Assembly: GCF_007741475.1 (NCBI RefSeq)
Contig: NZ_CP036261.1
Span: 5,147,798 to 5,211,797 of the forward strand
DNA from: Rosistilla ulvae
Lineage (GTDB): Bacteria; Planctomycetota; Planctomycetia; Pirellulales; Pirellulaceae
Direction: 5' to 3'
Length of the DNA: 64,000 nt
Position numbers and translations under genes: made by a program. Shown here piece after piece: positions 1-12,866 of this stretch. The notes beneath the pieces were generated by a model that saw nothing but the letters and a program-made list of their open reading frames with translations, was not told the DNA's origin and made no database searches. How positions within the stretch are numbered: position 1 is the stretch's first letter; the number at the start of each line of letters is the position of its first letter.

Positions 1-1976
1 CCGACTGCCGCGTCGGTTGCGATCGTCTGGCTTGCAACCTTCAATCGCCGGATCGCCAAACTCACCGATTCCTCGGCCGCCAGCGCAGCGGATGATTCCA
101 CCAACGACGTCTCCAATTGGCGAGTGACTTCGACTTCGGATGTCATGCCTGGATTCCAAGCCAACCGTTGGGCCAACACAAACTGTTCGGTCGCTTTGTC
201 GATTCGAGGACTCAAGATCGCGATCGCCGATGGATCCGAACCCAACCGACCGTGGATGCGGAACAAACGCACGGCTTCAGCGATCCGTTGATCGGATGCA
301 TTGGACGCCAACAACCTGTCGATCGCTTGCGTGATCGGAAAGGTCGGCGGGTTCTTCCAAGACTTCCGAACCGCGACGATCAATTCCAACGATTCGCGAT
401 CGACGCGTACGCTGCGATCGAATTGCCGGATCAGCGCTGCGAGCGACAACGTGGCTTGGTCTTCCGAAAACGCACTTACGTATTTGGCAACCGCCTTGCC
501 GATCAATGCGGGGCGATCCCCCGGAGCCGACTTGGCCAAGATCTCTTGTTGCGCGGCCAACAACTGTTTCGCGAGTTCGTCGACGTCGATGCCATCTTGG
601 TCGCGGATCATCCGCGCCGCGGCCATCCGCAGCGAATCGGGACGCTGCTGGGCCCAACGAGCCAGCTCGGCATCGATCGCCGCTAAACATGTTGCTTCCA
701 ATTGAGCGACCTCCGCTTCCACAGTGGCATCGGTATCGCCGCGACGCCACCCCGATTCGATCCGGCTGAGCCCTTCCGCCCAACCGCGAGCGGTCTTGGG
801 GAGCCAAGGGATCTGTGTGTCGGCGAGGTAGATTTCGCGTTGCCGCCATCCGGCGACAAGCGCCGTTGGATAGCTTCGTTTCGCTGCCGTCGCTGGTTGT
901 TCGATGGGACCGAAGAAGATTTCGGCGCCGCCGCGAATCCATTGGATCCGCTGTTCGGGCCCGATCTGCCCCGAGACCTCTTCGATCCGCGGCCCCGACC
1001 AGGTTATAGCTTCTTTCAACGAGACCCGGCCGTCGTGGTCGCGGTCAGCCGCTGCATCGCACAGCCCTTGAGTCAGCCAATAACACATCAAGCTCTGCGG
1101 CGTCGCTCGCATCCCGCGAGCCGGCCCTTGGTCCGAAGCGGACAACAGCAGATCGATTTTGGATAACTCGTTCAGCTTATATTGTTCTTTGATCGCAACA
1201 TTCAACTGCTTCAACCGCTCCGCCGAATCGCCATCATCGGCGACGGTCGGCCAATGCACCTCCAAGACCAGCAGCTTGTTTTCCGCGGGGGCTTTGTTCA
1301 GTTGACCAAGAAGATCGGCCAGCGAAATCGCCGTCTTGCGACGACTGGTCGGATCGTAGCCATAGAAGTAAACCTGCCCCTGATCGATGCGAGCCATCGT
1401 GCTGACGTGCAACACGATCTGTTGTCGCGAAGTGGTTTTAAGGAGTGCGTCGTGCCACGACGTTGCGGACGGCGTGGAGCTCGTTTCGACTTCAGCTGCG
1501 CCCTTTGCAGAAGCCGCGTTGGCATTTTTCGCCGCCGAGTCAGACGTCGCCGTCGCAGCAGCATCCGGCTTCGCAGCGGGCTTCGATTCCGCAGGCGAGT
1601 TCGTCGTTTTCGATTTTGATTTTGCAGTATCCGACTTGGCAGTGGATTCCGCCGCAGGAGTGACAAGCTGCGGCTGGGTATTCGCGGGGACCAGCCCCAA
1701 AAAAGGAGCGGCCAATGGCGGATGTGGCGCATCGACGCCTAAGGCTTCTTCGCCAGGTTGCAGATACACCGAGACCAGGACGGTGCGATGATTCGCCGAC
1801 GGCAGCGCGGCAAACGCCAGTATCGTGCCAGCTAGCGTCGCCAACAGACAGCTACCGATGGCCAGCTTGCGATAGCGAGACGGCCCCGCGTGCGGCATCC
1901 CGTTTCGCCAACGCGCACCGGTCGCCGTATCTTCGGTCGATGTGGGGTCGCTTGCTGTGGGTGACGTTTCGCTCAT
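1..1976 (-). CDS. Membrane-anchored pseudocaspase-like EF-hand protein (partial, C-terminus off the window)
   Basis: An uninterrupted frame runs from an ATG at 1976 past the left edge, giving about 658 residues without a stop. A short cytoplasmic N-terminus is followed by one hydrophobic helix (about residues 32-56), an Ala/Lys/Ser-rich linker, a domain at about 180-250 and a canonical EF-hand loop, DRDHDGRVSLKE (about 305-320). The middle domain has the same beta-strand spacing as the caspase-fold domain of the upstream gene, but the histidine position reads STMA instead of SAHG and the cysteine strand reads LVLEVHW instead of LLLDC, so both dyad residues are missing. The ATG overlaps the upstream stop codon (ATGA), which implies translational coupling with the active-looking paralogue. 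I infer a catalytically dead partner or regulator. The remainder is helical and unrecognised. Confidence 0.75.
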   Translation of the reverse strand, partial: MSETSPTASDPTSTEDTATGARWRNGMPHAGPSRYRKLAIGSCLLATLAGTILAFAALPSANHRTVLVSVYLQPGEEALGVDAPHPPLAAPFLGLVPANTQPQLVTPAAESTAKSDTAKSKSKTTNSPAESKPAAKPDAAATATSDSAAKNANAASAKGAAEVETSSTPSATSWHDALLKTTSRQQIVLHVSTMARIDQGQVYFYGYDPTSRRKTAISLADLLGQLNKAPAENKLLVLEVHWPTVADDGDSAERLKQLNVAIKEQYKLNELSKIDLLLSASDQGPARGMRATPQSLMCYWLTQGLCDAAADRDHDGRVSLKEAITWSGPRIEEVSGQIGPEQRIQWIRGGAEIFFGPIEQPATAAKRSYPTALVAGWRQREIYLADTQIPWLPKTARGWAEGLSRIESGWRRGDTDATVEAEVAQLEATCLAAIDAELARWAQQRPDSLRMAAARMIRDQDGIDVDELAKQLLAAQQEILAKSAPGDRPALIGKAVAKYVSAFSEDQATLSLAALIRQFDRSVRVDRESLELIVAVRKSWKNPPTFPITQAIDRLLASNASDQRIAEAVRLFRIHGRLGSDPSAIAILSPRIDKATEQFVLAQRLAWNPGMTSEVEVTRQLETSLVESSAALAAEESVSLAIRRLKVASQTIATDAAV

Positions 1977-4900
1977 CGGTCCACTCCAGAAAACGCGACG
2001 CGGGCGGCGTCGGGCGATGGATGTTGCGTGACGCTGTCGGGCGTTGGTTTGTCGTCAAAGATCACCTTGCCGCCGGCCCGTTCGGCGTTGCTGTTCACGC
2101 GATCGATAAGAATCAATTCGATCGATTGCAGAGTCCGCTGGACATCGTCGCTGGTGACCGGCCACTGTCGCAGTGTAAATTGACCCAACTCGGTAAAGCA
2201 CTGTTCGTCTTGTCCTTCGAACGCGAGACCGCTGGTTCGCACTCGGAAGGCCAGGCGACGCGGCCCGCTGCCACGCAGCACCAAACAGGGTTGCGGGCGA
2301 AGTGCACCGCTGCGGTCAGCGACATTGTGCGTTTCGATCGTTGCCGATTTCAGTCGGACTTCCCCTTCGCTCAACTGCCAACTTGCCGGAGCCAAGTCTT
2401 CCAGATGCCAGAAGTCTTTGTTTCGCACCAACGTCCCGACCGAATTTGCGTTGTGGTCGCTGGTCCATACCTGGAACTGCGGCTTGCCAGCGCCGGCGGC
2501 TTGCACCGTGATGTCATAGCTGTCGCAGGAGAGATCGTGGTTTTGTTGCCAGCGAATCGGCAGCTTTTGCTCGCCGTGCCGGGCTTCGATCCAGAGTTCG
2601 CGGGGCCGTTGAATCGCCAACTTGCCGTCGGACGATGGAGCCCACAGCATCAATCGACGCGCGGCGATTCCCGTCGCGGAGATCGGTTGCGGTGACAGCG
2701 CGATCGTCCAGCGACCGCTCTGCCGCTGCGGTGAACCGTGAAATTGTTTGTCGATCGTCGGCCACAGGTGAAGCGTTCCGCTGGCGGTTCGGTCCAACAC
2801 CAATTGGTCACCGTCGGTCAGATCGATCATCGATCCGCTGGAAGAACCATCCGTCGACGCGGTGTATAGACCCGCGTCCAACTGAGGTGTCCAGCTGGCA
2901 GCTGCATGTTCGGGGCTGATCGGTACCGTAGCCAACGGTCCCTTGTCGGCCGAAGGCTCTGCGACGGCGCGTCGAATCGCAATCGGTTCTTCGACGGTCA
3001 ACATCTTCGCCATCGCAGCGGCGAGTTCGGAGGCTTGATCGGCGGTCACAAAGCGTCCGGCAGGAAGCAGTTGTTCGACGGTCGCCAGTTGTTTCTCGGT
3101 CGCCGTTTTTTCCGCGTCGTCGACGCGGAAACCGATCACGTTGACTGTGATTCCGGTCCCGTTAAACTGCTTGCGAATCCATTGTTCGGGAGTCAGTTTC
3201 AAGGGGTTGGCAACCGCATCGTTTGCGATCCGGTTGTCGGCTCCATCGGTCACCACAACCAAACTGCGAACCCCTTGGAGATCGCGAAGGTCATTCGATG
3301 CGGCGAGCATCGCAGCCAGCAACGGCGATTCGTTCCAAGGTTCCACGTGCGGATAACTGATCGCGTCGATAAGGTTCTGTCGCAGCGAACGATCGTGCGG
3401 GTTCCAAACGACGGGTGCTTGAATCCGTTGAATCGAACGTTCGGCCGGGGTGACCGTTTTGGCTGATCCCATCGCGGCTCCGAAAGTCCAAACGCTCAAC
3501 TTGATTCCGCTTGGCAGATCATCCAATAGCGTTTCGATCGCGGTGACGGCGTGCGCGTATTTCGTGTTGGGACCAAACGCTTCGCCGCGAGCCGCTCCCA
3601 TGCTGCCCGAGCAATCCAACACCAGCGATATCGCGCCAGCCGATGTATGATCGGCGTGCGTCGCCGACCGGATTGCAATTCGCCCGCCGAGAGGCTTCGG
3701 ATTTTGCACGACATGGACGTCGGGAGTCGACGCGATCGTGGCGTCGAGAGTTTCCGTCAGCTGTCGGCCTCGGAAGTAACCGTGAACCTGAACCTTGGCG
3801 CCGGGCTCTTTCGAACCTTGCACGCGTTCCAGATGGACGATCAAGCTGTCCGACGCGGCAGTCTTCCCCGCGCCAGTCGACCTGGTCGACTGGATCAGCG
3901 GTCGACAAACCCGTTGTCCGGCGGTCGGTTGCGTCGCTTTCAAGCATCCCTCGGCTTCGACCCAGATCGCGACAAAGCCTTCGGCGCCGCGTTTCATCGT
4001 ACGTACGTCCGCGGTGAATTGATCCTGTCGCTGCGTTGTCCAGATAAGTTCGCTGGGCAGATGAATCGAGACTGCGGATTGCGGATTGTTCACTAGAGGT
4101 GAGCTTGGCACCGTCACACGTGGGCTGAGCGAAGCGATATCACCCGCCAATAATTCGGCGACTCGCGCGAAATAGGCAGGGCCCTCGGCACGCAGCGACC
4201 AATATCCGTCGGCGACAAAGCGGTTCGTCTGCCAAACTAAGAAGTTTGCGAAGAGATTCTTCCGCTGCACCGTGACGAACTGGCGACTGTCGAACGGTGC
4301 GACCGCGGCCATCCGATCTAACAACGCCAACCGGCGGTGCAGTTGTTCCTGTTCGTCGGCGGTTTGGCGTTTGATCGGCGTCGTGATCAGACGCAGGGCT
4401 TCGGTTTCGCGGATCCCGATTTGGTATCCGGCGATCGCCAACGCATCCCACCACTTCGAATCGGTCGCAAAGACTTGCAATCGATGATCCACTTCCGCCC
4501 ACGACTCGGATTCCCCGGCGACCAACGTATTGAACATTTCCGCCGACCAACCGCAGAGAGCCAAGTGGCCTCGACGCGCCGCGGCGGACTGGATCGAAGC
4601 CAGTGAGATCGAAAGATCCTCCGCGACCGGCGTGTTCATCGTCGCATCGGCGCCGGCCGACAAGCGGCACAAACTCTCCCACGCAGACCGCCGCGTGGCG
4701 GCGTCGCTCCCCACGACGTCCAGCGCCGCGAGCATCGGGGGCATCGATTGCGCAGGTTGCGACAAAACGTTGGTTTGCCAAGCGTTGATCCGTTTGCCAA
4801 GCGTATCAAATTGGTCGTGATACTGTTGAGTCAACGCTTGCAGTTTCGACAACATTGCGGTCCGCTGCGTCGCGTTCGCCGGAACCTCTTTTTTGAGAAT

Positions 4901-6898
4901 CGCATCGATTTGATCGACAGTTTGATACAGCGAGGCGACGTCGCGGAGATCGCGACTGTTGTCGCTGTCGATACTGGCGATCAGTTCGCACAGCCGCGCC
5001 AGTTGTTGACTGCCCCGATGGGCTATCGATTGAGCTGAGTTGACCACGCGACCGATTTGATCGACGCGTGCGTATCCCTTTTCGGCGGCGTCCAAAGATC
5101 GCTGGGCGCGTTGCCGCGATTCCTGTTCGCCAACCAACAGATCTCCTGCAAATCGCCGCTGTTGATCGCTCGACGCAATCTCCGCTTCGACCCAGGGGAC
5201 CAATTCGGGCGACCACCACAAGCTGTCGCTGGCGACGCGATCACAGCGGGTGCTCAACTCCAGAAACCTTGCAATCCGCGTCGCGTCGCTCGATCCAAGC
5301 GGTTCGGACGGCAGATCGCGAGCGAGAAACTGCAGCACGCGTCCCAGTTGAGGAATCGGTTGCAGCGGATCGGTGACCGCAGCGACCAGAGCCGATGCAG
5401 ATTGCAAGCGCTTGCGATCGACCGAAACTTCCGCACGGAAGGCGGCGACGGTTTGTTCGGACAAGCGTTGGATAACAGTCCGTCGCAAGAAGGCGACGTC
5501 CGCCGCACTGGGCTGCGCCGCAGCGACGCTCAACCAATGGTCGGTCGCGTCGTCGAGCGACATTCCCGACAACACCGCGGCCAATTGATCAGCGTTCTGT
5601 TGCCGCTCGGACGTGACTTCGAAACCGACCATCTCGGGCGATAACACTCCCGCACGACAGGCGATCGAATCGAACCGCGTTGGTTTTTGCAACGTTTTGG
5701 CGAGATCCGCAAGATGTTCGTTCAGCATTCCAGCCGCACTGCTACACCCCGCGCGTTCGAAGTGCTCGTAGCGTAACAGCGTGCGTTCGAACCGCCGCCA
5801 CGTCGCGGGCGATTTGGCAGCCGGATGCAGTTGTTGCTTGACCAATTGATCGTACCGAGACCACCACTTATCGATCCGATCGTTGTTGGTTGGTGAGACA
5901 AACGCGGGGATGTCGATCGCCGGCGTCTTGTCGGGGAACAGACCGAGGTTGCGCGTGCGGTTCTCTCCCTCTTTCCCCAGCGGTAGCAAAACGGGGTGCT
6001 GCGGTTGTTGGCAGACTTTGGCGGACCAGGCGGTCGCTCGATCGGCGGCGCAACGATGAACTTCCAGCAGATCGATCCAACCATCGCGATCGAGATCTTT
6101 CGCCAAACCGTTCAGCGCATCGACCAGAGCGTCGCCCCAGTTTGTTATCCCGGCGGCGGGATTGATCCAAGATTGTTGATTCGTATCGCTGGACATCACG
6201 ACAACCAGATTGGGAATCGCTTGGATCACAGAATCGAGGTCGCGGATCTGGCGAGCGAAATCGTTCAACAAGATCCCCAGCGACTCGTGCGATTGAAAGT
6301 GAACGCAGTCCAACAGCAGCACTTTCTTTTGGTTCTTGGGAAACTTCGCAATCTGATCCAGCAAGTCTTTCACCGGATAGGCGTCAGCGCTCGATTGAGC
6401 GTCGGCGGCCAACAGCGCAGGCCCCTGCGGCGTATGGATCCCGTGAGCCGACAGATAGATCAGCGAAATAGCGGCATCGCGATCGGTGCTGATTCGATCG
6501 AAGGCGCTGCGATTGGAAAGTTCCAACGGCGGCCGAGCCAGTTGGATATCGCGGCGGAGCCCAACATCGCCTCCGGTCACCCAGGCGGAGAGCCGCCCGA
6601 TCGCACGGTCTCCCATCGCATTGGGAGGCAGATCGAGATTGGCGTGATAATCGGTGCTGGCCAACATCACGCAGACCTGTGGCGCCCGACCGATACTAGT
6701 GGTCGCCCAGGTCAGCACCGCGGTCAGCGCGGTGGCGGCGAAGACACCGCCGATCAACAGATTCCAACGACTGGACCATTGCCAGCCGCGGCGACCGCTG
6801 CGACTGGAGTGCCATGATGCGATCGGATCGATCGGAGCCGTGCGTCGGGTTGGTGGCAACAACGGCGCATCGGATGATCCTTCGGCGCTAGACGACAT
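1973..6898 (-). CDS. Large membrane-anchored caspase-fold, EF-hand and VWA-domain protein
   Basis: About 1641 residues from the ATG at 6898 (a TTG 12 bases upstream is the alternative). A single transmembrane helix lies at about 45-67. A caspase-like (peptidase C14 type) domain follows with the dyad His in LSAHG (about residue 152) and Cys in LLLDC (about 198). An EF-hand loop, DLDRDGWIDLLE, sits at about 265-278. A long helical middle region leads to a von Willebrand A domain at about 1085-1300 with an intact MIDAS motif, DCSGS, and a beta-rich C-terminus. The topology puts most of the protein outside the cytoplasmic membrane. It is the first gene of a two-gene unit with the pseudocaspase gene (4-base overlap), divergent from the VgrG/PAAR operon. 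Bacterial caspase homologues often act in cell-death or proteolytic defence systems; whether this one does is not shown here. Confidence 0.85.
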   Translation of the reverse strand: MSSSAEGSSDAPLLPPTRRTAPIDPIASWHSSRSGRRGWQWSSRWNLLIGGVFAATALTAVLTWATTSIGRAPQVCVMLASTDYHANLDLPPNAMGDRAIGRLSAWVTGGDVGLRRDIQLARPPLELSNRSAFDRISTDRDAAISLIYLSAHGIHTPQGPALLAADAQSSADAYPVKDLLDQIAKFPKNQKKVLLLDCVHFQSHESLGILLNDFARQIRDLDSVIQAIPNLVVVMSSDTNQQSWINPAAGITNWGDALVDALNGLAKDLDRDGWIDLLEVHRCAADRATAWSAKVCQQPQHPVLLPLGKEGENRTRNLGLFPDKTPAIDIPAFVSPTNNDRIDKWWSRYDQLVKQQLHPAAKSPATWRRFERTLLRYEHFERAGCSSAAGMLNEHLADLAKTLQKPTRFDSIACRAGVLSPEMVGFEVTSERQQNADQLAAVLSGMSLDDATDHWLSVAAAQPSAADVAFLRRTVIQRLSEQTVAAFRAEVSVDRKRLQSASALVAAVTDPLQPIPQLGRVLQFLARDLPSEPLGSSDATRIARFLELSTRCDRVASDSLWWSPELVPWVEAEIASSDQQRRFAGDLLVGEQESRQRAQRSLDAAEKGYARVDQIGRVVNSAQSIAHRGSQQLARLCELIASIDSDNSRDLRDVASLYQTVDQIDAILKKEVPANATQRTAMLSKLQALTQQYHDQFDTLGKRINAWQTNVLSQPAQSMPPMLAALDVVGSDAATRRSAWESLCRLSAGADATMNTPVAEDLSISLASIQSAAARRGHLALCGWSAEMFNTLVAGESESWAEVDHRLQVFATDSKWWDALAIAGYQIGIRETEALRLITTPIKRQTADEQEQLHRRLALLDRMAAVAPFDSRQFVTVQRKNLFANFLVWQTNRFVADGYWSLRAEGPAYFARVAELLAGDIASLSPRVTVPSSPLVNNPQSAVSIHLPSELIWTTQRQDQFTADVRTMKRGAEGFVAIWVEAEGCLKATQPTAGQRVCRPLIQSTRSTGAGKTAASDSLIVHLERVQGSKEPGAKVQVHGYFRGRQLTETLDATIASTPDVHVVQNPKPLGGRIAIRSATHADHTSAGAISLVLDCSGSMGAARGEAFGPNTKYAHAVTAIETLLDDLPSGIKLSVWTFGAAMGSAKTVTPAERSIQRIQAPVVWNPHDRSLRQNLIDAISYPHVEPWNESPLLAAMLAASNDLRDLQGVRSLVVVTDGADNRIANDAVANPLKLTPEQWIRKQFNGTGITVNVIGFRVDDAEKTATEKQLATVEQLLPAGRFVTADQASELAAAMAKMLTVEEPIAIRRAVAEPSADKGPLATVPISPEHAAASWTPQLDAGLYTASTDGSSSGSMIDLTDGDQLVLDRTASGTLHLWPTIDKQFHGSPQRQSGRWTIALSPQPISATGIAARRLMLWAPSSDGKLAIQRPRELWIEARHGEQKLPIRWQQNHDLSCDSYDITVQAAGAGKPQFQVWTSDHNANSVGTLVRNKDFWHLEDLAPASWQLSEGEVRLKSATIETHNVADRSGALRPQPCLVLRGSGPRRLAFRVRTSGLAFEGQDEQCFTELGQFTLRQWPVTSDDVQRTLQSIELILIDRVNSNAERAGGKVIFDDKPTPDSVTQHPSPDAARVAFSGVDR

Positions 6899-7269
6899 AC
6901 AAGGCCCCAAGAGTATTTAAGTTGGAAAGACAGGCGAGACGTATCGGTGGGATCGCAAACAGTCGTGCAGCCCGACTCCGTCGCAAAACCTGTTCGCGCA
7001 TCGTGCGGCCACGTTTCATTGCCCACTGGCCATACGATGCCGCACAAACATAACCTCGAAAAACGTGCCATAAAAAATTCTTGCCTGATTCGGCAGCTTT
7101 TCCCAACCGCCGCGCGCCGCACAACCGGCAAGCTTCGCGCAGCAGGAACGGTCGAGTCAAAATCCGCACACAACGATGAGAATCAGCTGACCATCGCAAG
7201 CCCTCGCCGCCGATGCGACCCATCGGGCAATGTATCGACACTGTCCACTTCGGCCTAAGGAGAGGCTGG
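6899..7269. promoter_or_regulatory. Divergent intergenic region between the caspase genes and the VgrG operon
   Basis: About 370 bases lie between the ATG of the caspase-VWA gene and the first plus-strand start. It must hold the promoters for both directions. A strong ribosome binding site, AAGGAGAGG, lies just at its right end (7257-7265). I see no convincing palindromic operator and no extended reading frame that looks coding. Confidence 0.4.
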
Positions 7270-7320
7270 ATGTTTGTGGCAGGGATTGCCGATCGAGCAC
7301 AACAATTCGATCTCAGGTAG
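7270..7320 (+). CDS. Possible 16-residue leader peptide before the VgrG gene
   Basis: The best ribosome binding site in this region (AAGGAGAGG, 7257-7265) is correctly spaced for the ATG at 7270, which opens a frame MFVAGIADRAQQFDLR ending in TAG at 7318-7320. The VgrG-like ATG lies only seven bases after this stop. This arrangement would couple VgrG translation to the leader. The alternative is that the same site serves a TTG at 7274 in the VgrG frame, giving an 18-residue N-terminal extension. Confidence 0.3.
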   Translation: MFVAGIADRAQQFDLR

Positions 7321-7327
7321 CCCAGCA

Positions 7328-10054
7328 ATGCCCTTCGATTCGCCGCTCACTCCAGTGCAGACTCGCATCCATCTGCACTCTAGCCTCGGAGTGGACCGAT
7401 TTCGCTTGACCGAAATTCGCGGTCGCGAGCGGATCAGTGGGCTCTACAGTTTCCGGCTGAAACTGCGTACGCATCGCCACGACCCGGTGACGTTAGACCA
7501 ATTCACCGGACTGGCTGCGATGGCCAGTTTCCAGTTGCCCGATCCTCACTGGTTGTCGGTCGTCGCCGCCGACGGTGCCCCCGCAACGCGCGACTTCTGC
7601 GGGATCCTGTCGCACGTCTCCTACGACCACAGCGACGATCGCGACCGCTACTTCACAGCGATCCTTCGTCCGCGACTGTGGCAACTGGGACTCAACCGTC
7701 GCTTCCGAATGTTCAGCCAACAGACGACTCGCACAATCGTCAGCACGGTCCTGGGCAGCATGAACGTTCAGTGGCGATTGGCGAACGATACCAAGCTGCA
7801 CAATTACTGCGTGCAGTACGGCGAAAGCGATTTTGCTTTCGTCAGCCGCTTGCTCGAAGCGGACGGCCTGTTCTACTTCTTCGAACACCAATACAAAGGT
7901 CAAGCTGTCGATCCCAAAGAGCGTACCGAACGCCTGGTGATCACCGACAGCATCGACGCAGCCAATTCGCCGCCGCCATCCTCCTCTGGCGATTCCGCGA
8001 GCGAAGCATCATCGGACACGTCGGCCCCGGCCACTCCCATCTACCGATTCGACAACGTCGGTGGAGGTGTTCGCGATTCGATGCGGGTGCGGCGTTGGGT
8101 CGCCACGCGTCAGTTGGTTCCCGAGACAAGCCGTTCGTTGGACCGACACTTCCAACGTCCCAGTTCGCTGGCCGACAGCTCTCATACGATCGACGGCGCG
8201 ACGGCGTCGGACGCGAGCACTTGGATGTGTTATCCATCGGGCATCGCCTCTCGGGTCGACAACATCACTCCATCTGGCGACGACCGCGATCAATTAAAGG
8301 ATCTGAACCCGTGGGCCGAATCGGATGCCAAGATTCGTGCGGCGCGACTGCACTACCAGGTCGATCGATTCCGCGGCGCGGGCGATATCGCGACGATGAG
8401 CCCGGGCAAGAAGTTTCAACTAGTACGCGATCGAGTTCCCGATTCGACCGAGTATTACTTGACTCAAGTCGAACATCTGGTGCGGTTGGCGACGGGACAA
8501 CACAGTGGTCCCCACAGTGCCGAATTGACCTACAAGAATCGCTTCCGCTGCAGTTCGGTTGCGGTTCCCTACCGTCCGGCGCTGAAGACCGCTAAACCGA
8601 GGATCGACGGTGTGGTTCCGGCGACGGTTGTCGCTGACAATTCGCAAAAAGACGATCAGGTTTGCGTCGACAAATATGGCCGTGTGAAGGTTGTCTTTCC
8701 GTGGCAAACTGGAACAGATGCTCCTAGTTGTTGGGTGCGTGTCGGCCAGTTCTGGGCTGGACCGCGTTGGGGTGCATTCTTCTGGCCGCGGGTGGGCCAT
8801 GAAGTGATCGTCGCTTTTGAACATGGCGATCCCGATCGGCCGCTCATCGTCGGCAGCACGTACAACGCGACGAACATGCCGCCGTTGACGCTCCCCTCGC
8901 TGAAACTCTCCTGCGGCATTCACTCCTGCACGCACAAGGGGAATCCGGTCAACAACACAAGCACAGTCGTGTTCCATGACAAACAGGGAGCCGAATATTT
9001 GGAACTGCATTCGGAGACCTACCACAGCATCAGCAGCGAGACGACGGAAGTGAAGTGGTCGGCGGGTAAAGAGATCCAATTCAAAGGACACCATTGGTTG
9101 TTCGACGCGATCGGCGGCAGCGGCGGCGGCGGCAACAACATGAGTGGCGACGACGACGGCACCGACGCAATATTCAAGGATCCAGGGGAAGAGTCGGAGT
9201 CGGGCTTCAGCGCTACCGAGATGCTCAAGAGCATTTTCTTGGCCGACGATAAGGGCGAGATCGACTTTACCGTGGGCGATTCGTTTTCGAAGACCTTTGG
9301 CGGATCGTACGCAAGTAAATATGGGTGCAACATTTCGATGGTCTGCGACCCGATGGATTTCTTCGAGTTCCTGACCGACAAGATTGGCGAGCGTGCTCCC
9401 ACCGCAGGCATGCTCCTCAACCCTTTGCTTCCCCTGCTTTTTGGCGCTGGAGGACAGGGGCTGACGACGTTTGGTGGCAAAAGCAATCTGCACTACGGTA
9501 CGGCTGTCGAATCCCATCGCGGCTACAAAATCACCAAGATGCTACCGACTCCGAAGGAACCCGCAGCGAGGTTTTCCAAAGGCAATGAAACGCCCGTCGA
9601 CGCTCCCGCAACGACAGCGTGCGAAATTGCGGTGGCCCTACTGTTGATCATGGACCTGTTGGTGATGTTGTTAACCAAAGCAGCCGTCTCCCACCAGGGA
9701 AGTCACTGGCAAGGGTTCGTCAAGTTCAGCGAGATCTGGACGTTTAACATCCTGCCACGCTTGCAGGGGATCTTGGTCTTTATCGAATCGACCGAGGCGA
9801 AGGTCGACGATGCAGCCGCTGCGGTGGAGGATACCGTCGACGATAGCGAGGCGGCTCTGCAACGCTCCGAACGGGTTCTCGAGTCTACCGATTCGTCGGC
9901 GCCCGAGAGCACCGAGGCCGCGGGGGGTGAAGTCGAAAACGCCGTCTCTTCCGTTGCAGTCAGCGAACGAAAATTGTCGAGGGTTCTTTCCGATGACGAG
10001 GACGAGGACGAGGACGACAAGTCCGATGGCGGTGAATCCGATGGTGCAGAATGA
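7328..10054 (+). CDS. VgrG-like spike protein with unusual C-terminal extension
   Basis: About 908 residues. The N-terminal half (about 1-420) has the gp27-like fold signature of VgrG/Rhs spikes (opening RIHLHSSLGVDRFRLTEIRG, then DFAFVSRLLEADGLFYFFEH). Residues about 449-516 are the gp5-type OB-fold (DKYGRVKVVFPWQ, CWVRVGQFWAGPRWG, VGHEVIVAFEHGDPDRPLIVG). After the OB fold there is no long beta-helix; instead there is a Gly/Asp-rich linker, a hydrophobic segment (about 764-788, LLLIMDLLVMLLTK) and an acidic Glu/Asp-rich tail (about 890-908). The needle is apparently supplied by the next gene. VgrG trimers cap type VI secretion or related contractile tubes; no sheath or tube gene is nearby. 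The ATG at 7328 is chosen because it directly precedes the family N-terminus; a TTG at 7274 is possible. Confidence 0.9.
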   Translation: MPFDSPLTPVQTRIHLHSSLGVDRFRLTEIRGRERISGLYSFRLKLRTHRHDPVTLDQFTGLAAMASFQLPDPHWLSVVAADGAPATRDFCGILSHVSYDHSDDRDRYFTAILRPRLWQLGLNRRFRMFSQQTTRTIVSTVLGSMNVQWRLANDTKLHNYCVQYGESDFAFVSRLLEADGLFYFFEHQYKGQAVDPKERTERLVITDSIDAANSPPPSSSGDSASEASSDTSAPATPIYRFDNVGGGVRDSMRVRRWVATRQLVPETSRSLDRHFQRPSSLADSSHTIDGATASDASTWMCYPSGIASRVDNITPSGDDRDQLKDLNPWAESDAKIRAARLHYQVDRFRGAGDIATMSPGKKFQLVRDRVPDSTEYYLTQVEHLVRLATGQHSGPHSAELTYKNRFRCSSVAVPYRPALKTAKPRIDGVVPATVVADNSQKDDQVCVDKYGRVKVVFPWQTGTDAPSCWVRVGQFWAGPRWGAFFWPRVGHEVIVAFEHGDPDRPLIVGSTYNATNMPPLTLPSLKLSCGIHSCTHKGNPVNNTSTVVFHDKQGAEYLELHSETYHSISSETTEVKWSAGKEIQFKGHHWLFDAIGGSGGGGNNMSGDDDGTDAIFKDPGEESESGFSATEMLKSIFLADDKGEIDFTVGDSFSKTFGGSYASKYGCNISMVCDPMDFFEFLTDKIGERAPTAGMLLNPLLPLLFGAGGQGLTTFGGKSNLHYGTAVESHRGYKITKMLPTPKEPAARFSKGNETPVDAPATTACEIAVALLLIMDLLVMLLTKAAVSHQGSHWQGFVKFSEIWTFNILPRLQGILVFIESTEAKVDDAAAAVEDTVDDSEAALQRSERVLESTDSSAPESTEAAGGEVENAVSSVAVSERKLSRVLSDDEDEDEDDKSDGGESDGAE

Positions 10055-10147
10055 TCGGGTGCCGCTGCAACCTAACAACATTCGAGCGATAGCGAACCTT
10101 CAGAAGCTTCTGATTCAAAACACGCTACAAAACACAAAGGGTTAACG

Positions 10148-10798
10148 TTGGATAACGCAATTCATCTGATGGGCGAACACGCCACGACATGCGCCGATTT
10201 TTCGGTGCGAGCCCAGGTCAAAAGCACGCCGACCAATCCCGCGGATCCCTTGATGGGGCGGGTCAGCCTGACCGCCGAAGGGCCCAATGACGACGGCAAC
10301 GTCAGCCTTCAAGCCAACGGGCGAGTGACTTCGCAAGTCGATCAGTGTCGGATCGATGTCCTTTCCGACGGCATAGTCGTCGACTCGGGCAACACCGGAA
10401 ACATCGGCTTGCGGGCCGGCACCGCACCCTGCATGCAGCAGGTCGACCTCGAAGGCAACGGCGGCAGCATCGTGCTTGAAAACGGTCAGATCGACGGTTC
10501 TCCCAAGATCGAGGTCGGCGCCGATTCGATCACGCTTTCGGTCGGAACCAACAAAATAACGATCAGCGCTACCGGGATCACGATCGAAGGTATCGAAGTC
10601 ACCGTGGAAGGGACCGCATCGGCCGAAATGAAAGCGCCAAGCGTTTCGGTCTCCGCCAGCGCCGACGCCACGATCAAGGGTACCGCATCGACCGAAGTCA
10701 GTTCCTCGGGAACGATGACGGTCAAGGGTACCGCGTCGACCGAAGTCAGCGCATCGGGAACGATGACCGTCAAGGGTGCGATCGTCATGATCAATTAG
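10148..10798 (+). CDS. Beta-helical needle protein, VgrG C-terminal type
   Basis: About 216 residues from a TTG at 10148; an ATG at 10169 is the alternative. The sequence is dominated by short alternating Val/Thr/Ile/Gly strands such as ADSITLSVGTNKITISATG, the pattern of the triple beta-helix (gp5 C-terminal / DUF2345-like) that normally forms the VgrG needle. The last third contains near-identical repeats of KGTASTEVS-(S/A)SGTMTV. In many systems this segment is fused to VgrG; here it is a separate gene between the VgrG body and the PAAR tip, which fits a split spike. The assignment is from composition and position. Confidence 0.65.
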   Translation: MDNAIHLMGEHATTCADFSVRAQVKSTPTNPADPLMGRVSLTAEGPNDDGNVSLQANGRVTSQVDQCRIDVLSDGIVVDSGNTGNIGLRAGTAPCMQQVDLEGNGGSIVLENGQIDGSPKIEVGADSITLSVGTNKITISATGITIEGIEVTVEGTASAEMKAPSVSVSASADATIKGTASTEVSSSGTMTVKGTASTEVSASGTMTVKGAIVMIN

Positions 10799-10850
10799 TC
10801 CCAATCTCCTCGACACCTTTGATTCCAACCTTCAATACGAAAGACCAACG

Positions 10851-11141
10851 ATGCCTCCTGCCGCCCGCGTTACCGACCTCCATGTCTGCCCCATGGTCAC
10901 CGGACTTGTGCCCCACGTCGGCGGCCCGATCTCCGGCCCCGGAGCCCCAACGGTCCTGATCGGCGGCATGCCCGCATCGGTCGTCGGCGACATCTGTGTT
11001 TGTGTCGGACCTCCCGATTCGATTGTGATGGGAAGCGGCACCGTGATGGTCGGCGGTAAACCGGCGGCGCGGCTGGGCGACACGACCGCGCATGGCGGCA
11101 CGATCACCTTGGGCTGCCCGACCGTCATGATCGGCGGTTGA
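10851..11141 (+). CDS. PAAR-domain spike-tip protein
   Basis: 96 residues covering a single PAAR domain, with the start MPPAARVTDLHVCP, repeated Gly-rich turns (GGPISGPGAPTVLIGGMPAS) and the C-terminal metal-site pattern with His and Cys (TAHGGTITLGCPTVMIGG). PAAR proteins sharpen the VgrG spike, bind a metal at the tip and often carry or recruit effectors. This one has no effector extension, so any toxin would have to be a separate protein. It lies 52 bases after the needle gene in the same orientation. Confidence 0.92.
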   Translation: MPPAARVTDLHVCPMVTGLVPHVGGPISGPGAPTVLIGGMPASVVGDICVCVGPPDSIVMGSGTVMVGGKPAARLGDTTAHGGTITLGCPTVMIGG

Positions 11142-11199
11142 AATCATTTGAACCCGCCGGCTCGATCCGCGAACCGTGTTCTATCCAAAGCATTTTATC

Positions 11200-11712
11200 A
11201 TGAACCTCGATCAGTTAGACAAATTTTTGGCGGCCCAAATCGAAGCGCGGACGCCCAACGAAGGGATCGACGCGATGTGCCAGCACGCCCCAGCCAACCG
11301 CCTGATTTGGTGGGGATGCCTGTCGGCCTGGTCGATCTGGCGTCCCACGCCTCCGCCTGTCGAAGACGCCGCGCTAGCGATCGCCGCGCGTTGGGTCTTC
11401 CAACCAAGCGACGACCTGCGCCGCGCCGCGGCGCAGCAATCCAAGTCCGATACCGTTGGGCTGTGCAAGTTGCTGTTGCAAGCTGTGCAATTCAGTGGCG
11501 GCCAGCTGAAGATCGACGACGCGGGAACCGAGGTGCCAACGCCCAACGTTTCAGGCCCCTACACCAAAGGCTTCACCCACAATCTGCTGGCTGTCAGCCC
11601 GCCGGTCGAACGAGCGACCGCAGCCCAAAATCTCTTGCAACTGGCGCGTCAGGCGATCACTCGTCCCATGCCGACGGCCGAGCCAACGCAACCAACACCG
11701 CAACTTGTTTAA
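11200..11712 (+). CDS. DUF6931-like protein of the spike operon
   Basis: About 170 residues from the ATG at 11200; a GTG at 11176 would add eight. It is largely helical, with a conserved-looking Trp/Pro core (RLIWWGCLSAWSIWRPTPP, AARWVFQPSDDLRRAA) and a Pro-rich C-terminus. It resembles the DUF6931 proteins I associate with VgrG/PAAR loci of planctomycetes; that match is from memory and unverified. No catalytic motif is visible. Position directly after PAAR suggests an adaptor or chaperone loading cargo on the spike. Confidence 0.7.
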   Translation: MNLDQLDKFLAAQIEARTPNEGIDAMCQHAPANRLIWWGCLSAWSIWRPTPPPVEDAALAIAARWVFQPSDDLRRAAAQQSKSDTVGLCKLLLQAVQFSGGQLKIDDAGTEVPTPNVSGPYTKGFTHNLLAVSPPVERATAAQNLLQLARQAITRPMPTAEPTQPTPQLV

Positions 11713-11724
11713 CGGAACCCGACG

Positions 11725-12165
11725 ATGAAAACGCCAGACAATGTTGAAGGCCTGTGGGACGATCTGGATAACATTCAGAGCCAGATGCGCATCGGGATCG
11801 ACGCCTTGCCACCGTCGCAAGTCAAAAAGGTGATGAACCGTTTGATGGAGGTCGCCCAGCCGCTGGTTGGCAAAATGCGAACCGCCTATCCCGAAGCGAT
11901 CGATGCGTTTGAAAATCAGATTGCTCATATGGATACGCAAATGGAACAGGCCCGCCAGAACATCACAAAGGCCAAAGAGAATCTCGCGAACGCGCCGCCG
12001 GCCGCTGAGATTCGCAAGAATTTGGTTCCGCTTGCCGGCGCGCTGCCGAGCGGTCTGTCGTTGCAATTCGCCGATGAAATGCGCGACCGCTACGTTCCGC
12101 CAGCTCCCGATCCAGCACTCGACGACGGTCCCGGAGCGGCTTGGCAAGATTGGTCGATCTCCTAA
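11725..12165 (+). CDS. Helical coiled-coil protein of the spike operon, unknown function
   Basis: 146 residues, predicted to be almost entirely helical: a Gln/Met/Glu/Lys-rich stretch at about 45-90 (NQIAHMDTQMEQARQNITK) looks like a coiled coil, followed by a Pro-rich, acidic C-terminus. No enzyme motif or signal peptide is seen. It starts 12 bases after the preceding stop and ends 2 bases before the protease gene, so it is tightly embedded in the operon. A scaffold, chaperone or cargo role is possible, but nothing in the sequence decides. Confidence 0.7.
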   Translation: MKTPDNVEGLWDDLDNIQSQMRIGIDALPPSQVKKVMNRLMEVAQPLVGKMRTAYPEAIDAFENQIAHMDTQMEQARQNITKAKENLANAPPAAEIRKNLVPLAGALPSGLSLQFADEMRDRYVPPAPDPALDDGPGAAWQDWSIS

Positions 12166-12167
12166 TC

Positions 12168-12866
12168 ATGGCGACCGTCACTCAATCCGCAACGTCGCCT
12201 GCCGCCAACTCTCCAGGATTACCTTTGAATAGCGCAGCAGCCTTCACGGAAAACGCTCAACCGCGGTCTTGCGGCCCGATTTCGCTGGTCGCTGCGCTCC
12301 GCCGGTTTGGGATCGAGCGATCGGTCGATGCGATCTGGCCCGCCGTCACCCGAGACGATCCGTTTGGCACTCGCGCCGCGCGATCGTACCTGATCGCCGC
12401 CTTGGCCCGCACGTGTCAGCTGGATGCCGCGGTTTTGCAGTGCCAACCCGAACGAGCGTGGCAGGCGATTCAAATCTGCCACGACGCCGACATAACTGTC
12501 GTCCTGAACCATCGCGCCTACCGCGCCCCCGACGAAGGACATTTCACATTATTGGCCGCGATCGACGACGCAACGATCACAGTCGACGATCCCTTTCTGG
12601 GGAAAAACAAACAGATCGACCGACAAAGCTTCTTGAAACTCTGGCAGCCCAATCGAGAGACGGCGGGACATGTGTTGATCGCCATCGGTAACCCCACGAC
12701 GGACCGAACCGCAGAAGCTTCGGAAGACATCACAACGTGTCCACGCTGCGCCGCGCCGATCGCTCTGACGCCTAGCCGCCTGTTCGATCCGAGCGTCTGG
12801 AATTCCGACGGCCTCTGGCGACGGTTCTTCTGCCTCGGGTGCGATGCGTCGTTTTCACCGCGTTAG
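12168..12866 (+). CDS. C39/papain-like cysteine protease with C-terminal zinc ribbon
   Basis: 232 residues from the ATG at 12168, two bases after the previous stop. The pattern RSCGPISLVAAL (Cys about 35) matches the catalytic Cys helix of C39-type peptidases, and DEGHFTLLAAID...DDPF supplies the His (about 125) and Asp (about 140). The C-terminus has two CxxC pairs (CPRC and CLGC), a likely zinc ribbon. There is no signal peptide. In C39 systems the domain cleaves double-glycine leaders; here there is no ABC transporter, so it could be an effector delivered by the spike or a processing enzyme for the operon products. It is the last gene of the plus-strand operon. Confidence 0.75.
   Translation: MATVTQSATSPAANSPGLPLNSAAAFTENAQPRSCGPISLVAALRRFGIERSVDAIWPAVTRDDPFGTRAARSYLIAALARTCQLDAAVLQCQPERAWQAIQICHDADITVVLNHRAYRAPDEGHFTLLAAIDDATITVDDPFLGKNKQIDRQSFLKLWQPNRETAGHVLIAIGNPTTDRTAEASEDITTCPRCAAPIALTPSRLFDPSVWNSDGLWRRFFCLGCDASFSPR

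Follow-up and report, generated by a model that had tools for sequence, protein, structure and literature searches.

A stretch of 64,000 nucleotides from the genome of Rosistilla ulvae (class Planctomycetia, order Pirellulales; NZ_CP036261.1, a single contig of 7.48 Mb), referred to below as the window and starting at base 5147798, opens with eight genes. A leftward pair, casp1 and casp2, encodes large proteins with caspase folds, and a rightward six-gene operon encodes a VgrG/PAAR spike and associated proteins. We propose that this locus probably comprises a spike cassette together with two lineage-specific parts of the single type VI secretion system (T6SS) of the genome, the casp pair forming the periplasmic body of its membrane complex. 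A wider proposal, on which we regard the arguments as evenly balanced, is that Planctomycetia possess a third type of T6SS channel through the envelope, in which the periplasmic domain of TssM and TssJ would have been lost and a duplicated caspase would have become a giant, dead periplasmic scaffold pair, perhaps together with a barrel, serving in anchoring and gating.

The only T6SS of this genome is distributed over three places: a core cluster at 2.05 Mb, TssK (E 4e-75) at 4.54 Mb and the window locus at 5.15 Mb. The core contains the single TssC (PF05943, E 1.6e-130), clustered with ClpV, a short TssM and TssL, and with TssA, TssB, Hcp, TssE, TssF and TssG. TssA, TssB, the gp25-like TssE, TssF and TssG were matched by Pfam models, a ClpB-type AAA protein was assigned as ClpV by its context, and Hcp was identified via a homologue in locus L071 (PF05638, E 2.8e-40) and a local profile. 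TssL/DotU (PF09850, E 3.1e-16) and PF14331, the N-terminal domain of IcmF, likewise occur in the core cluster. The genome is thereby predicted to encode a sheath, Hcp, a baseplate, ClpV and a spike of VgrG and PAAR, and the VgrG of the window was the sole Phage_GPD match found in it. Since there is one TssC, one TssK and one VgrG, the operon of the window is most simply the spike of this split T6SS. The original prediction of a spike lacking a sheath therefore does not hold, as TssA, TssB, TssC, TssE, TssF, TssG, TssK, TssL, a short TssM, Hcp and ClpV are all encoded elsewhere in the genome; an extracellular or sheath-less injection system was excluded on the same grounds. The opposite case, an ordinary split T6SS with no caspase neighbour, had also been envisaged; the split is real, whereas the caspase-fold neighbour recurs.

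This recurrence was examined in 60 relatives (G and L labels denote genomes and loci compared, G000 being the genome of the window). The 26 genomes with VgrG coincided with the 27 with TssC, except for G033, which has a weak TssC fragment. A profile built from 13 casp1 proteins scored at least 75 bits in 24 of the 26 relatives with a T6SS and in none of the 34 without one, where the best score was 70.5 (Fisher p 9e-15 when each genome counts as independent). The two T6SS relatives below 75 bits, G024 and G026, have matching open reading frames (ORFs) of 1689 and 1750 amino acids (aa). A matching ORF of at least 1400 aa occurs in 25/26 T6SS relatives versus 0/34, the exception being G046 with an 811-aa match. 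Both limits, 75 bits and 1400 aa, were set after the list of relatives had been seen, and eight candidates were scored per genome in this search, compared with three in the phylum-wide one. In 19 of the 26 T6SS relatives a large casp ORF lies no more than 35 kb from TssC or VgrG.

Wider sampling gave a similar picture. In a phylum sample of 147 genomes, ten of which belong to the class of the window, a casp ORF longer than 1400 aa was found in all five T6SS genomes of that class and, among the matches listed, in none of its five T6SS-negative genomes. At least 23 casp1 loci were revealed when 84,980 species genomes were scanned. Among the matches listed, nine were full-length, all from Planctomycetota (including Singulisphaera, Blastopirellula marina and Gemmataceae, those three of class Planctomycetia); VgrG was present at all nine and Tss genes also at seven, and one of the nine contigs is that of relative G039. 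The other 14 of the 23 listed were partial, consisting of 417-660-aa proteins from outside the planctomycetes with no T6SS match by local profiles.

Gene order links the pair to several parts of the apparatus. Both casp1 and casp2 were found within one fetched region in 17 genomes, and casp1 diverges from VgrG in G000, G001, G002, G019, G029, G039, G042, L081, L082, L084 and L089. A casp gene adjoins TssM in G006 (order TssK-TssL-TssM-casp1-TssB-TssC), G042, L083 and L089; in G042 TssL-TssM meets casp2-casp1, with VgrG next and casp1 approximately 10 kb from TssC. In L086-L088 casp1 adjoins TssA or TssC, and in G151 and G179, which share the class but belong to a different order, a casp2-like gene, a short TssM and casp1 follow one another on one strand. 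In the Planctomycetia genomes examined, casp1 and casp2 are thus tied to the presence of a T6SS and usually to T6SS loci. The eight genes exist where they had been placed, and this synteny bears out the earlier suggestion of an association between spike and caspase pair that is found repeatedly among planctomycetes.

Two consecutive TssC genes were observed in many planctomycete T6SS clusters (L051, L066, L069, L074, L104, L111, L112 and L117).

The T6SS accompanied by these proteins lacks the canonical periplasmic part. In the class of the window, TssM ends 0-17 residues past the last predicted transmembrane (TM) segment in 13 of 13 proteins with intact C-termini; the TssM of the window genome ends six residues past it and no PF06761 domain was found there. 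Four long TssMs of other classes continue for 700-982 residues. In the TssM alignment the ten short rows end at their own stop codons, and the four long rows were trimmed by the analyst. Within the T6SS relatives, PF06761 and TssJ (PF12790) were each detected in 1/26, both in G021. TssJ was not found in the window genome and was found in 1/60 relatives, with a model that detected the E. coli control and that a very divergent TssJ could escape. In the phylum sample PF06761 was present in 0/5 T6SS genomes of the window's class; among other classes it exceeded the cut-off in 18 of 34 T6SS genomes, and four more of the 34 have a 1373-1534-aa ORF bearing the IcmF N-terminal domain. Because PF06761 also matched in G054, a relative without TssC, and missed four long other-class TssMs caught by the Pfam IcmF N-terminal model, its absence alone does not prove a short TssM; the gene ends do.

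Several observations accompany the TssM survey. G021 has four TssC and three VgrG matches, casp ORFs and 4 percent contamination, so it may combine two T6SS types or be contaminated. The Walker A motif GK[ST] occurs in 0/10 short TssM rows versus 4/4 long ones (short examples: L041:13966-16083, L106:10390-12060 and L121:8769-10454). Intermediate-length ORFs with TssM-like TM spacing stand beside T6SS genes in two loci of other classes (L116:3370-5559 and L109:2-2644), which suggests that further variants of the membrane complex may exist in other planctomycete classes.

The casp1 gene (1973..6910, minus strand) encodes 1645 aa from a TTG start, with an in-frame ATG at 6898. It overlaps by four bases with casp2 (3..1976, minus strand), which is cut by the window edge; 658 aa lie in the window and 1498 aa are encoded in the genome (G000:C1:5145277-5149773). 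The two proteins are paralogues. In casp1 a TM helix predicted from hydropathy and charge only (aa 51-69; 6704..6760) is followed by the caspase-fold domain (aa 74-328; 5927..6691), a helical region, a VWA domain (aa 1090-1307; 2990..3643) and beta domains. In casp2 one N-terminal TM helix precedes a degenerate caspase fold, a helical region and, beyond the window, a C-terminal CarboxypepD_reg (transthyretin-like) domain. An N-terminal TM-like helix was found in 26/26 casp proteins, with the N side more positive in 24/26. The Arg-rich flank on the N-terminal side of the helix suggests that the N-terminus of casp1 is inside and the remainder periplasmic.

The closest profile for the caspase domain is NF047832 (EACC1-associated caspase), which matches 11/13 casp1 proteins at E 0.01 or better; the score of the window protein is below the curated cut-off. 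When the PDB was searched by sequence, the best result for the casp1 profile was a short VWA match (E 0.0095); for the window's caspase domain the lowest E value was 0.17, and no caspase was among the matches. Foldseek found nothing at or below E 0.001 for the first structure model, and VIA-align then found caspases. Fold matches of the VWA domain include the pilus proteins PilB, SpaC, PitA and Mfa5, among many other VWA proteins. T6SS membrane-complex structures were absent from the fold-match lists, an absence that carries no weight, as most of each VIA list was filled by a single domain.

A T6SS tail requires an envelope anchor, as established for TssJLM and TssNQOPR. We infer a structural function for casp1 and casp2 because the T6SS here lacks the canonical periplasmic part and is accompanied by two large proteins that are probably periplasmic and, in several genomes, encoded beside TssM. 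In the arrangement we envisage, TssL and the short TssM would form an inner-membrane ring docking the TssK baseplate, and casp1 and casp2 would insert beside this ring to supply the missing periplasmic body. The caspase folds may act as a pairing module near the membrane, with the helical arrays crossing the periplasm and the VWA, immunoglobulin-like and transthyretin-like tips pointing to the peptidoglycan or outer membrane. Barrel-like and HEAT-repeat proteins, linked to some clusters, may form the rest of the envelope structure. The sheath would then fire the VgrG-needle-PAAR spike through the assembly, the DUF6931 and helical proteins would load the spike, and the C39 protease could be cargo or a cargo-maturing enzyme.

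A number of results weigh against this proposal. No large casp match was found near a T6SS gene in 7/26 T6SS relatives, some of which have short contigs, but in the one-contig genome G020 it lies more than 1 Mb away. In the phylum sample, the T6SS-negative G156 passes 75 bits through caspases of the ordinary kind (600 aa), and the long ORFs of six genomes match weakly, over one domain, at 70 bits or less. The transthyretin-like match is absent from two of five casp2-type proteins scanned. In the remaining 12 of the 34 other-class T6SS genomes neither PF06761 above its cut-off nor the longer IcmF-type ORF was found, one of them carrying a 729-aa ORF at the corresponding place. Some other-class T6SS genomes lack both PF06761 and a convincing casp (three candidates scored per genome), so the lack of PF06761 alone does not require casp1. 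No outer-membrane partner of the HEAT or barrel-like type was seen in the examined stretches of the window genome. Comparison of the casp1 and casp2 profiles with the periplasmic region of TssM gave hhalign probabilities of 0.3 and 0.1 percent; a detached periplasmic half of TssM was excluded on this basis, and the pair would be a replacement rather than part of a split TssM. Our confidence was lowered slightly by the transthyretin-like tip being found in only three of five casp2-type proteins and by the 12 other-class genomes left over.

A sensor or regulator that is always present would give an identical association. It is conceivable, if clearly less probable than a structural role, that the pair is a contact sensor or gatekeeper of firing, with the VWA tip binding a surface ligand and the caspase fold relaying the signal to TssM/TssL. 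The residues of the metal ion-dependent adhesion site (MIDAS, DxSxS) are invariant in 13/13 casp1 proteins, reading DCSGS in the window, the VWA fold matches include pilus proteins, and VWA MIDAS motifs are described as binding extended peptides (PMC7159879). Association and topology fit a sensor equally well. A sensor leaves unexplained what took over from TssJ and from the periplasmic domain that TssM lost, and large proteins found in 25/26 T6SS genomes resemble machine parts more than an optional regulator. A sensing or gating role could also hold alongside the structural one.

The caspase folds themselves raise the question whether the pair is a cascade of proteases or a module for cell death, one that exploits or guards the T6SS. 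The register of the catalytic residues was set by aligning three ordinary-looking caspases of G041 with the casp1 caspase profile, HG falling on HG and DAC on the consensus DAT. These G041 proteins are encoded in tandem (L059:7492-13190), are 450-671 aa long and carry both HG and DAC. The catalytic His is kept in 12/13 casp1 proteins, including that of the window (His156), and in 1/13 casp2 proteins (as HG). A Cys at the catalytic position (D+2) occurs in 1/13 casp1 (G019) and 0/13 casp2. The window protein reads LLLDCVHF, with Cys one place early and Val203 at the catalytic position, and a Cys at D+1 is shared by 5/13 casp1 proteins, the window among them. In a separate alignment of ten, L084 (Blastopirellula) also has the catalytic Cys, so that G019 and L084 retain a complete His/Cys pair. 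Casp1 and casp2 are thus caspase-folded proteins that, judged by these residues, appear to be mostly catalytically dead. With the domain predicted to be periplasmic as well, we consider a protease or cell-death role improbable, and an active cascade was excluded by the loss of most caspase Cys residues. Proteases had originally been proposed as the effectors or sensors of the locus; this falls for the caspases (Cys lost in 12/13 casp1 and 13/13 casp2), whereas the C39 protein keeps its Cys and His.

The divergence of casp1 from VgrG in 11 genomes would suit a role of the two proteins as self-anchored toxins of the spike or as large effectors of the T6SS. This is very unlikely, given the N-terminal TM-like helix, the low ratios of nonsynonymous to synonymous substitution (dN/dS) of casp1/casp2 (0.10-0.25), the Pfam scans, which revealed no toxin domain, and the several genomes that place casp with TssM/TssK or TssA/TssC, away from VgrG. 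An orphan VgrG island landing by chance beside a caspase pair, which the distance of the locus from the T6SS core and TssK might suggest, deserves hardly any credence, being excluded by the recurrence of the synteny across several families and orders and by the 24/26 versus 0/34 distribution.

The spike cassette is separated from casp1 by an intergenic stretch (6911..7273) and begins with the VgrG (TssI) body (7274..10054, plus strand, as are all six genes; likely ATG start at 7328). It is followed by a separate spike needle (10148..10798) with weak similarity to the Francisella-type VgrG needle, the PAAR tip (10851..11141; E 2.9e-24), a DUF6931 protein (11176..11712), probably a spike or cargo adaptor, and a 146-aa helical protein (11725..12165), probably an adaptor or chaperone. 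The DUF6931 family was found in 16/60 relatives, every one T6SS-positive. The last gene (12141..12866) encodes a C39-like cysteine protease with a C-terminal zinc ribbon (PF03412, 23.4 bits against a cut-off of 22), in which Cys44, His134 and four zinc-ribbon Cys residues are invariant in 9/9 homologues aligned; it may be cargo or a cargo-maturing enzyme. Its Singulisphaera counterpart (L083:7713-8900) has a long C-terminal helical extension, perhaps the fused neighbouring helical protein.

Purifying selection acts on all eight genes of the locus: across 16 comparisons involving two congeners dN/dS is 0.09-0.31, and against G029 the ratio reaches 0.36, with one value undefined. The needle, DUF6931 and helical proteins (10148-12165) are 95, 91 and 93% identical to those of G001, and 90, 86 and 82% to those of G002. 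Casp1 and casp2 are nearer to G002 (94 and 90%) than to G001 (68 and 62%). As identity ranks G001 first for the cassette and G002 first for the caspase pair, this suggests that the cassette may have been exchanged among species independently of casp1 and casp2.

A search of the window and loci L040-L123 revealed two further families of envelope candidates, HEAT-repeat proteins (present in 11) and proteins resembling an outer-membrane barrel (present in eight), both with signal-like N-termini (by eye). The HEAT matches are weak, with five of five proteins scanned matching and one over the cut-off; PF13557 matches three of four barrel-like proteins scanned, all below the cut-off (best E 0.00028), and seven of eight end in RY, RF or FY. 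The two genes form an adjacent pair in L081:1899-4251, L082:1657-3987, L045:849-3369, L048:17501-19890 and L086:19517-22021, and are candidates for the outer-membrane part of the T6SS. A conserved-ORF screen gave six clusters in at least five genomes, of which four resemble FHA/regulator, ImpE, kinase-like and sigma-like proteins; except for ImpE, these resemblances were judged by eye.

The T6SS itself is a known system, and its occurrence in Rhodopirellula baltica has been on record since 2009 (PMC2660368; see also PMC6461901 and PMC5394234). In the open-licence literature we found no link of caspase-fold or VWA proteins to the planctomycete T6SS, no description of its membrane complex, and no T6SS combining a truncated TssM with a pseudocaspase-VWA pair. 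The membrane complex varies by lineage, and the variants in the literature surveyed are from Proteobacteria and Bacteroidota. If correct, our proposal would show the tail rebuilt onto new anchors, namely a truncated TssM and proteins with a death-protease fold. Large planctomycete caspase-like proteins, whose genes might otherwise be taken for cell-death genes, would then also have a specific function.

Known systems share individual features with the locus. Tvp spike-assembly complexes (PMC13373197) likewise include accessory proteins downstream of vgrG that aid VgrG-PAAR spike assembly; they are defined by a DUF2169 TvpA and a DUF4150-type PAAR, whereas the window cassette has DUF6931, helical and C39 proteins, and DUF2169 matched none of the eight proteins scanned. 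The EACC1-associated caspases (NF047832; PMC7159879), closest in profile to the casp1 caspase domain, are described as members of EACC1 conflict systems; here no EACC1 partner family appeared in the scans and the Cys is lost.

The comparison extends to T6SS envelope complexes. As in canonical T6SSi with TssJLM, TssL (PF09850) and PF14331, the N-terminal IcmF domain, stand beside ClpV, TssA, TssB, TssC, Hcp, TssE, TssF and TssG. However, the planctomycete TssM stops after its last TM segment, its short form lacks Walker A (0/10, against 4/4 long rows), and PF06761 and TssJ are absent from 25/26 T6SS relatives. The non-canonical T6SS of Acinetobacter also compensates for TssJ loss with lineage-specific envelope proteins (PMC10564176); the abstract of that paper describes TsmK and a new TssM domain and names no caspase or VWA proteins.

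The Bacteroidota T6SSiii combines sheath, tube and baseplate with lineage-specific envelope proteins, TssNQOPR, in place of canonical periplasmic TssM/TssJ; TssR carries VWA and TssP PKD domains, and deleting each of the five genes ablated competitive advantage or killing (PMC10781749). The predicted periplasmic VWA protein of planctomycetes recalls TssR. It differs in having a caspase fold and about twice the TssR length (TssR domains end at residue 790 in that source), and the planctomycete system, unlike TssNQOPR, keeps TssL and the cytoplasmic/TM part of TssM. General Pfam scans gave no match to TssR, and no search aimed at TssN-R was made. TssNQOPR may thus be regarded as a close functional parallel rather than as a demonstrated relative: a T6SS anchored in the envelope by proteins particular to its lineage, a VWA protein among them.

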